From Cellulophaga sp. F20128 (GTDB taxonomy: Bacteria; Bacteroidota; Bacteroidia; Flavobacteriales; Flavobacteriaceae), in contig NZ_JALKBA010000008.1 of assembly GCF_023015805.1 (NCBI RefSeq), positions 1-64,000 of the forward strand: a DNA stretch of 64,000 bases, given 5' to 3'. This document shows positions 45,573 through 47,808 of this stretch, piece by piece. The translations under genes were made by a program, and so were the position numbers. The number at the start of each line of letters is the position of its first letter. Position 1 is the stretch's first letter. The notes under the pieces were generated by a model, which had not been told where the DNA came from, did not search any database, and worked only from the letters and a program-made list of their open reading frames with translations.

Positions 45573-46715
45573 ATGGCAACATTAGATAAATCATCATTAC
45601 AATTACCTAAAGAAAATTTAGAAGCTGAAGATTTTCTTCCGCTATTAGGCACAGACTACGTGGAACTCTATGTGGGTAATGCCAAGCAGGCTGCTCATTA
45701 TTACATGTCTGCCTGGGGTTTTCAACCCTTAGCATATGCAGGTCTGGAAACAGGATTAAAAGATCGCGTATCCTATGTAATAGCACAAGACAAAATTAGA
45801 TTGGTTCTTACCTCTCCTTTAAATTCTGGAGGAGACATCAATAGACATATAGACGCACATGGTGACGGGGTTAAAGCTATCGCCCTTTGGGTAGATGATG
45901 CTACTAAAAGTTATCAAGAAACCACCTCAAGAGGCGCAGACAGCTATTTTGAACCAAAAAAAGAGGAAGATGAGAATGGAGTGGCCGTTTTCTCTGGTAT
46001 TCACACCTATGGAGAAACCGTTCACATATTTGTAGAAAGAGGCAATTATAAGGGTGTATTCTTGCCCGGTTTCAAAGCTTGGAACCCTCACTATAAACCC
46101 ACAGATGTAGGCCTTAAATACATAGACCATATGGTTGGCAATGTAGGATGGAACGAAATGAACAAATGGTGTGAGTTTTACGCCAAAGTAATGGGGTTTG
46201 CCCAATTGGTCTCTTTTGACGATAAAGATATCTCTACAGAATACACCGCCCTTATGAGTAAGGTTATGAGTAATGGCAATGGCCGTATTAAATTTCCCAT
46301 AAACGAACCCGCAGAAGGAAGAAAAAAATCCCAAATTGAGGAATACATCGATTTCTATAATGGAGCAGGGGTACAACATATGGCGTTAGCCACAGATAAC
46401 ATCATTGAAACCGTTACAAAATTAAGAGATCGAGGCATAGAATTTTTAACGGTACCTAGCTCGTATTACGAAACCGTTTTGGACAGAGTTGGTGAAATTG
46501 ACGAAGATTTAGCCCCGCTAAAAGAATTGGGTATTTTAATAGATAGGGATGAAGAAGGGTACCTTTTGCAGATCTTTACAAAACCCATTTTAGACAGACC
46601 CACAATGTTCATAGAAATTATACAACGAAAAGGTGCTAAATCTTTTGGAAAAGGGAATTTTAAAGCACTTTTTGAAGCCATAGAAAGAGAGCAAGAAGCT
46701 AGGGGAACCCTATAA
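45573..46715 (+). CDS. hppD: 4-hydroxyphenylpyruvate dioxygenase
   Basis: A 380-residue Fe(II) enzyme that makes homogentisate from 4-hydroxyphenylpyruvate in tyrosine degradation. Two VOC domains are present. The iron ligands are His186 (YIDHMVG), His269 (VQHMAL) and Glu348 (FIEIIQ). The C-terminal FGKGNFKALFEAIEREQ helix that closes the active site is intact. The next step, homogentisate dioxygenase, is not encoded in this window. A palindrome and hairpin precede the gene, suggesting regulation by tyrosine-related signals (inference). Confidence 0.97.
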   Translation: MATLDKSSLQLPKENLEAEDFLPLLGTDYVELYVGNAKQAAHYYMSAWGFQPLAYAGLETGLKDRVSYVIAQDKIRLVLTSPLNSGGDINRHIDAHGDGVKAIALWVDDATKSYQETTSRGADSYFEPKKEEDENGVAVFSGIHTYGETVHIFVERGNYKGVFLPGFKAWNPHYKPTDVGLKYIDHMVGNVGWNEMNKWCEFYAKVMGFAQLVSFDDKDISTEYTALMSKVMSNGNGRIKFPINEPAEGRKKSQIEEYIDFYNGAGVQHMALATDNIIETVTKLRDRGIEFLTVPSSYYETVLDRVGEIDEDLAPLKELGILIDRDEEGYLLQIFTKPILDRPTMFIEIIQRKGAKSFGKGNFKALFEAIEREQEARGTL

Positions 46716-46825
46716 AAATCGGTTATTTAATAGGAAACTATTAATTTTTATTACGAAAAGCTAAAGTTCTGTTAACAGTTTAGTTAAAGTAAGTTAAAAC
46801 CTATTAATGCAATAGAATATTGTAG

Positions 46826-46833
46826 TATTTTTG
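46826..46833 (+). promoter_or_regulatory. -7 element of the candidate small RNA
   Basis: TATTTTTG is an exact TAnnTTTG match 5 nt before the first hairpin. The upstream TTG is replaced by ATG (46807-46809) at a 16-bp spacing. A CTGTTAACAG palindrome lies about 50 bp further upstream (46769-46778). Confidence 0.5.
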
Positions 46834-46838
46834 TCGGC

Positions 46839-46940
46839 ATAAGGGGTGGTTCCCTTATAACTTTAAGTATTGGTTTTTCATAATTTAAAGTTTGGTTGGT
46901 TATTTAGGAAAAGCCCAGTTTTAAAGCTGGGCTTTTTTTT
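46839..46940 (+). ncRNA. Candidate structured small RNA or leader with terminator
   Basis: Between hppD and the DUF3108 gene (313 bp) lies a compact set of stems. Hairpin 1: ATAAGGG (46839-46845) with CCCTTAT (46852-46858), loop GTGGTT. Hairpin 2: AACTTTAA (46859-46866) with TTAAAGTT (46885-46892), directly abutting hairpin 1, so they can stack. Hairpin 3: AAAAGCCCAG (46909-46918) with CTGGGCTTTT (46927-46936), followed by more T, an intrinsic terminator. A TATTTTTG promoter element ends 5 nt before hairpin 1. The product would be about 102 nt. It contains no usable ORF. It could be an independent sRNA or an attenuating leader for DUF3108-kynA. Confidence 0.55.
46909..46940 (+). terminator. 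Intrinsic terminator of the small RNA candidate
   Basis: GCCCAG/CTGGGC extended by A/T pairs gives a 10-bp stem with an 8-nt loop and a T8 tail. It lies about 195 nt past hppD and 88 nt before the DUF3108 start. Confidence 0.85.
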
Positions 46941-47028
46941 ATACAATACTTTGGAACAAAAGTTGTTTAAATAAATGTAAAGACGATAGATTGTTTTTTC
47001 AATTTTAGTAATTTTACACCCAAGGGAT

Positions 47029-47808
47029 ATGAAAAAAATATACATTATACTGCTTGTACTAACTACTCTCTCTGCAAACGCACAAGAAAACAAAAGTGCT
47101 TTTAAGGCTGGGGAATGGTTAAAGTTTAGATTGCATTATGGAATATTCAACGCCAGTTACGCCACACTTCAAGTAAAAAACGACAAAATAAACAACATTC
47201 CTGTATACCATGTTGCTGGGGAAGGGAGCACGGTAGGCCTTGCCAGAATATTTTTTAAAGTAGATGATGTTTACGAAAGCTATTTTGACAAAGAAAACGG
47301 AAGACCTTATAAATTTATAAGAAAAGTTAGTGAAGGTGGTTACACCATAGACTTGGATATAGATTTTGACTACCAAAAGAAAAAAGCCATTTTAAACGAC
47401 AATAAAAAAGGCAAAAAGATTGAATTTACAATTCAAGATAATATCCAAGATTTAATATCTGCTTTTTACTATCTAAGAAACAATTACAAAGCTGAAGAAT
47501 TAGTAAAAGGAGAGTTTATTGAACTAGACTTGCTATACGATGATGACGGTATTTTTAAATTTAAACTTAAATATCTCGGAACAGAAGTTTTAAAAACGAA
47601 ATTCGGAAAAGTAGAATGTCATAAATTTAGACCTTATGTAGAATCTGGGAGAGTATTTAAAGCACAAGAAAGTTTATCGCTTTGGGTCTCTAATGATGAT
47701 AATAAAATTCCTATTCGAATTAAAGCAGATTTGGCAGTAGGTTCCATAAAGGCAGATTTAGACGGTTACGCCGGATTAAAACATCAGTTTAAAATAATAA
47801 TGGATTAA
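47029..47808 (+). CDS. DUF3108 exported protein
   Basis: A 259-residue protein with a signal peptide (about 1-19, ending LSANAQ). The rest matches the DUF3108 family: FKAGEWLKFRLHYGIFNASYATL near the N-terminus (split; about 25-47) and a central FVRKVSEGGY-type strand. The fold resembles lipoprotein-carrier-like half-barrels. Function is unknown. It starts an apparent four-gene unit with kynA, an M23 peptidase and pgi, with gaps of 5 nt or less between most members. Confidence 0.85.
   Translation: MKKIYIILLVLTTLSANAQENKSAFKAGEWLKFRLHYGIFNASYATLQVKNDKINNIPVYHVAGEGSTVGLARIFFKVDDVYESYFDKENGRPYKFIRKVSEGGYTIDLDIDFDYQKKKAILNDNKKGKKIEFTIQDNIQDLISAFYYLRNNYKAEELVKGEFIELDLLYDDDGIFKFKLKYLGTEVLKTKFGKVECHKFRPYVESGRVFKAQESLSLWVSNDDNKIPIRIKADLAVGSIKADLDGYAGLKHQFKIIMD

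Follow-up and report, generated by a model that had tools for sequence, protein, structure and literature searches.

A candidate independent small RNA gene in Cellulophaga sp. F20128 with predicted antisense pairing to the starts of SusC-type receptor mRNAs

The spacer between hppD (ending at 46715) and a DUF3108 gene (47029-47808) in Cellulophaga sp. F20128 holds a folded RNA stretch that looks like a small RNA gene in its own right. We consider it probable that this separate, ~100-nt RNA acts in trans, repressing the mRNAs of SusC-type receptors by base pairing. All features described here lie on the forward strand of the 64,000-nt stretch that was analysed, hereafter the window. Three computed results carry this reading: a conserved and covarying RNA, its separation from DUF3108 by a terminator and a sigma54-like site, and an excess of complementarity to the starts of SusC-type genes. 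From these we infer a mechanism in which a dedicated promoter and terminator would bound the transcript. A CAU in the loop region of its second hairpin would cover the AUG of SusC-type TonB-dependent receptor mRNAs, and a single-stranded GGUUGGUUA linker would cover an AACUAAC-like stretch 13-22 nt upstream of that AUG. Pairing of this kind would block the start of translation and lower many outer-membrane uptake systems together.

The putative sRNA occupies 46838-46941, its start placed by the distance to a promoter box and its end by the terminator, and a covariance model matches 46836-46939 with 124 bits. Hairpin 1 (46839-46858, with GGGGUGGUUCCC on its loop side) directly abuts hairpin 2 (46859-46892, ACUUUAA...UUUAAAGU), which is followed by a 13-nt linker and an intrinsic terminator (46906-46941) composed of a hairpin at 46906-46939 and a T run. 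The most conserved stretch is the core, UUUUUCAUAAUUUAAAGUUUGGUUGGUUA (46874-46902), which serves as the predicted seed; within it, CAU at 46879-46881 is predicted to face the AUG, and GGUUGGUU at 46894-46901 to face the 5'UTR element. The minimum free energy is -36.2 kcal/mol, compared with -19.3 ± 3.2 for 200 dinucleotide shuffles, none of which is as stable (z -5.3). A first-pass annotation of this DNA had described three tightly ordered hairpins, two of them abutting, between a promoter element and a T-tailed terminator, and had judged the stretch too organised for a random AT-rich spacer, all of which is borne out by the sequence and the fold. The interval it proposed (46716-47028) does contain the RNA but is too wide, as its right part also takes in the promoter region for the operon that follows.

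Upstream of the RNA, TATTTTTG (46826-46833) matches the TAnnTTTG -7 box of the sigmaA type and lies 5 bp before the inferred start. According to the available text of a study of Flavobacterium psychrophilum, this flavobacterial box sits at -12 to -5 (PMC9723704), which would place the start near 46838-46840, in agreement with the 46839 suggested earlier. A further element, AGTTAAAGTAAGTTAAAAC (46782-46800), lies ~40-55 bp before the start and contains GTTAAA repeated after 10 bp. It is kept in most rows of the family alignment, across many genera; a scan of the own genome, bearing on a possible PHO-box role of the GTTAAA repeat, finds only the site itself and one other place, with 2 mismatches. 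This GTTAAAGTA-n-GTTAAAA element looks like the site of a dedicated regulator. In four Kordia and Galbibacter copies (L064, L082, L096 and L101), a palindrome-like ATGCTTGCAT replaces the second GTTAAA, and another regulator may have taken over there.

The RNA is widely distributed in the Flavobacteriaceae. DNA searches detect it in all 18 genomes of the genus (Cellulophaga-like, own genome included), and in at least 9 of these the match shrinks to query ~40-140 (window 46839-46939) at 91-95% identity. The RNA stretch is thus conserved above its flanks, with a core that other genera share almost unchanged. Across the family, a DNA search gives matches in 66 of 149 genomes at E<=1e-3, short partial matches counted in, and the covariance model finds the RNA in 164 of 299 sampled genomes at E<=1e-3 and in 79 at E<=1e-8. 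An exact pattern scan of named genomes yields at least 120 loci, and the matches listed include Maribacter, Arenibacter, Zobellia, Cellulophaga, Allomuricauda, Robiginitalea, Kordia, Galbibacter and Capnocytophaga. One covariance-model match is present in the own genome (G000), and some relatives carry two or three copies (Kordia, Cerina and G040). The class-wide sample contains a match in 24 of 295 genomes. One is the own genome; five belong to g128, another genus within the Flavobacteriaceae, and score 48-72 bits; the remaining 18 reach ~36-42 bits. Five of these 18 weak matches outside the family were inspected (L215-L219) and rejected; all are without the CAU-GGUUGGUUA core and resemble terminator matches. 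Within the family, 40 divergent homologues were taken from the listed covariance-model rows, as a subset of those with E ~1e-10 to 7e-6, and 30 of them have CAUA, the linker and either (G/A)GUUGGUUA or something close to it; consequently, much of this weak tail is real.

Covariation supports two of the three stems. The covariance-model alignment retains 49 of 55 non-redundant rows, drawn from 161 found, with 6 mis-bounded rows excluded and 4 edge loci skipped. Loci L001-L058 came from ordinary DNA searches, and L060-L179 were fetched with a 28-base pattern, so that conservation of this pattern in the latter is partly selection. Among 57 aligned matches, both partners have changed in 17 of 27 pairs while 95.9% of cells remain paired, which none of 500 shuffles reaches. 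Hairpin 1 supplies this signal with 7 of 7 pairs and the terminator, variable in sequence, with 9 of 10, in an alignment that favours the model for these two stems. Hairpin 2 is paired in 94% of cells with 1 of 9 inner pairs changed on both sides; being nearly invariant, it adds little to the covariation signal and is weak as a covarying stem. One homologue (L053) lacks hairpin 1 and keeps the core. Among the findings that the first-pass annotation named as refuting its structured RNA was a lack of covariation or conservation of the stems in relatives; hairpin 1 and the terminator do covary, and the RNA is conserved. The RNA scores below the cut-off of every Rfam family (Flavo-1, RF01705, and 6S included; 64 kb window, 0 matches), and ten homologue loci give above-cut-off Rfam matches only away from the RNA. 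Two g128 loci have Flavo-1 matches near the homologue, at L211:2956-3036 (60.4 bits) and L213:3005-3088 (40.8 bits; cut-off 42), and the Kordia locus L064 has two DUF805b matches.

The genes around the RNA are, according to Pfam, a patatin-Omp85 protein, a glyoxalase/HPPD-type protein (HPPD N-terminal model at 23.4, below the cut-off of 27), DUF3108 (PF11306, 192.8 bits; 81% protein identity to Cellulophaga omnivescoria, the nearest named row), tryptophan dioxygenase, an M23 peptidase and PGI. DUF3108 is the constant neighbour: in 150 of 163 loci it follows the sRNA in the same orientation; at least 7 of the 13 loci without it stop less than 400 nt from the RNA. Upstream, hppD is found in 86 of the 163 loci, part of which stop before the hppD position, and a patatin gene is the direct neighbour at others (e.g., L061-L063). 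In g128, DUF3108 follows the RNA at 5 of 5 loci and a near full-length hppD precedes it at 4 of 5, indicating that the hppD-sRNA-DUF3108 order is old.

This constant position downstream would fit a 5' leader or attenuator of the DUF3108-kynA-M23-pgi unit, as the first-pass annotation had offered besides an independent sRNA, but we hold a leader to be very unlikely. Of 148 intervals between the strong terminator and DUF3108, 137 contain a sigma54-like TGG-n-n-N6-TTG[C/T] site, compared with 1.5 expected, mostly 75-82 bp ahead of the ATG. In the window, this site is TGGAACAAAAGTTGT (46952-46966), outside the sRNA and probably the promoter of DUF3108-kynA-M23-pgi. Its sigma54 form is exact in Capnocytophaga-type loci (L133 and L149) and near-exact in others; only 4 of the 148 intervals have the strict TGGCA form. 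Copies of the sRNA also lie away from DUF3108, at two Kordia loci (L064 and L096) and one in Capnocytophaga (L109); no alternative antiterminator pairing was seen, and the part that is invariant across the family is the linker rather than a switch. Together with the promoter box, the terminator and the covarying stems, the sigma54-like site and the copies elsewhere support an independent gene and make a leader unlikely. Control by amino acids, proposed earlier from the position between tyrosine and tryptophan catabolic genes, finds no support: in addition to the partial linkage to hppD, kynA was not found behind DUF3108 in three Capnocytophaga loci (L107, L111 and L133) and the sRNA contains no ATG. 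On synteny and the missing ATG, we reject an amino-acid leader.

The candidate targets emerge from the core, which is the antisense of UAACCAACCAAACUUUAAAUUAUGAAAAA. At the starts of SusC-type receptor genes, the predicted pairing sets CAU opposite AUG and GGUUGG opposite an AACUAAC-like element upstream. Thirty TonB-dependent receptor starts of the own genome (those given loci among 53 Plug matches) average -17.7 kcal/mol, compared with -13.4 for 40 window ORFs (p 4.8e-5). Of the 30, 22 have open frames of at least 1000 aa. The 22 SusC-like starts pair better than 353 other genes of the genome (p 7.5e-7; per-gene z, p 1.6e-7), with the limits that start codons were picked by a heuristic and that SusC genes, as paralogues, are not independent data. 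A z below -2 is reached by 13 of the 22 SusC-like starts and by 33 of the 353 genes. The excess holds against 223 secreted-like genes (p 1.9e-6) and 70 secreted genes starting ATGAAA (p 1.9e-4); against other receptors, p is 0.05. For the SusC-like starts, the pairing is strongest at the start codon and nowhere else (-18.9 vs -12.0 to -14.6 at 20 other offsets), the signal is confined to RNA part 46862-46915, and the AACYAAY motif occurs in 7 of 22 SusC UTRs vs 14 of 353 genes. In two genomes with 32 SusC starts between them, the predicted duplex includes CAU at 29-31 starts, mostly against the AUG (28-29), and the first GG at 31-32. None of 200 shuffled cores scores as low in the own genome, and neither do 200 shuffles of whole starts or 200 of UTRs only.

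Taken singly, SusC starts do not stand out in energy, and the top genes outside the class reach -25.9. The lone SusC in a sample of 400 kb plus the window, drawn from the own genome, scores -15.0 and is not at the top, where the ranks are mixed. These mixed ranks speak for a base-pairing sRNA whose true targets are wider or different, taking in secreted AUGAAAA starts, lipoproteins, kynA or DUF3108, with SusC as one part; overall, we regard this reading as unlikely. Single genes also point towards it: pairing of the core with the start of kynA (47811) is predicted at -23.9 kcal/mol (rank 8 of 353 listed genes), a lipoprotein-like ORF start on another contig of the genome (C26:182110-182129, L232) carries an 18-base mismatch-free match to the core antisense, and several secreted or lipoprotein genes stand in the top rows of two other sRNA-bearing genomes, G078 and G031. 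As a class, however, secreted genes average -14.2 vs -14.1 for all genes, and the neighbouring starts are unexceptional across loci, with shuffles scoring as low in 6 of 50 cases for kynA (64 named loci) and 5 of 50 for DUF3108 (103 loci). The corresponding figures at named loci are 36 of 50 for hppD, 31 of 50 for M23 and 33 of 50 for patatin.

Three further sRNA-bearing genomes support SusC pairing to varying degrees; the shuffle tests used the 10 best SusC-type starts per genome. In the g128 genome G505, tested with the core of its homologue, none of 100 shuffles is as good, and in G125 the count is 1 of 100, with UTR-only shuffles as good in 38 of 200. In G078 (283 genes of 400 kb), 5 SusC genes differ from 274 others at p 8e-4 and rank 1 is a SusC gene. 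A fourth sRNA-bearing genome, G031, gives p 0.09 with only 2 SusC genes. Linker length and UTR spacing show no visible co-variation in G078, and the 2 SusC genes of G031 are too few to reveal any. Genomes in which no sRNA was detected show no comparable signal: 34 of 100 shuffles are as good in G335, of the same order, and 73 of 100 in G148, which has 2 SusC genes only. As a positive control, the core of FopS, an sRNA of Bacteroides, scores 0 of 100 in a FopS genome (G386), where the window core scores 14 of 100. The FopS core also scores elsewhere (1 of 200 in the own genome, 1 of 100 in G505 and 3 of 100 in the sRNA-less G335), as does the g128 core (0 of 50 on window genes with M-K/R/N starts and 1 of 100 in G386). 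Part of the signal is therefore generic, reflecting CAU plus a U run against AUGAAAA.

Pairing alone does not account for every conserved part of the RNA. The long single-stranded G/U-rich linker is conserved, as is the GUGGU of hairpin 1, which divergent homologues retain; both would suit an RNA that binds or titrates a protein and owes its conservation to that protein rather than to mRNA pairing. We give this little credence, since it leaves the start-codon peak without explanation, and the RNA matches neither 6S nor another Rfam family at cut-off. For the favoured reading, repression of SusC-type mRNAs by pairing, a seed role would itself explain the strong conservation of the RNA.

The divergent homologues point to the conditions under which the sRNA may act. 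A strict TTGGCA[C/T]-N5-TTG sequence lies upstream of the RNA in 18 of the 40 (vs 0.04 expected), all within L364-L392, and 15 of the 18 sites are 44-52 nt before the model start. DUF3108 was not found beside these 18 homologues within the short stretches covered. According to the available text on F. psychrophilum, genes for protein quality control and the envelope-stress response are under sigma54 promoters there (PMC9723704). Combined with the sites found here, this suggests a stress-driven role for the sRNA. A sigma54 site thus precedes the sRNA in one branch and follows it in the branch of the window, which also suggests a tie to a sigma54 envelope programme.

Much of the breakdown of algal polysaccharides is the work of flavobacteria, which depend for it on dozens of SusC-type receptors. 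If the predicted pairing is real, a single RNA with a strongly conserved seed would tie many of these uptake systems together and offer a simple, testable handle on how flavobacteria switch off glycan uptake. In enterobacteria, RybB and MicA are sigmaE-dependent sRNAs that lower many outer-membrane proteins. By analogy only, the window RNA would likewise link an envelope-stress sigma factor to an sRNA lowering outer-membrane proteins; it differs in its sigma factor and has no known Hfq link. Tentatively, it could be a family-wide counterpart: a sigma54-linked sRNA with a two-part seed that lowers the whole SusC class under envelope stress and is possibly related to FopS. We think this extended version possible, at less than even chances.

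The nearest known system in action is FopS, which, according to the available text, binds near susC start codons and represses these genes (PMC11697453); GibS is another sRNA of Bacteroides (PMC7366714). Coverage of susC start codons is predicted for the window RNA and established for Bacteroides FopS, and the FopS core in the FopS genome gives the same kind of signal in the same pairing test. In an alignment, the two also share UUUUUCAU near the 5' part, GGUUA ~15 nt later and then a terminator. Against the FopS family model (RF04319), however, the window RNA scores 21.1 bits (cut-off 56). FopS consists of a single-stranded 5' part and a terminator only, whereas the window RNA has two hairpins before its terminator, and FopS occurs in many paralogous copies, compared with the single match here. 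FopS is partnered by the RRM-1 protein RbpB, and no PF00076 (RRM_1) match was obtained in the own genome. Score, architecture and copy number thus argue against membership, and the RNA is best read as working like FopS without belonging to it. FopS itself was not found in 7 family genomes sampled. When the window RNA's model was run on 25 FopS loci, 6 of 7 weak matches fell on FopS copies (E 0.28-2.4), and 86-628 of 2000 pairwise shuffles were as good at six loci, so that sequence kinship is only suggestive. A common root of the two RNAs is the question this raises; if they do share descent, antisense control at SusC start codons would be ancient within the Bacteroidota.

Within the family, the literature searched describes no SusC-controlling sRNA. 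The Rfp RNAs of F. psychrophilum are, like the window RNA, conserved, structured flavobacterial sRNAs, and in the available text the third stem-loop of Rfp18 is said to pair with protease mRNAs (PMC9723704), whereas the third stem-loop of the window RNA is the variable terminator. As g128, probably Flavobacterium, has a homologue, the window RNA could be among the 85 new Rfp RNAs. Set beside these systems, and on the strength of its sequence, the window RNA is best read as an sRNA antisense to start codons, its two-part seed borne on a hairpin, and present across much of the family.
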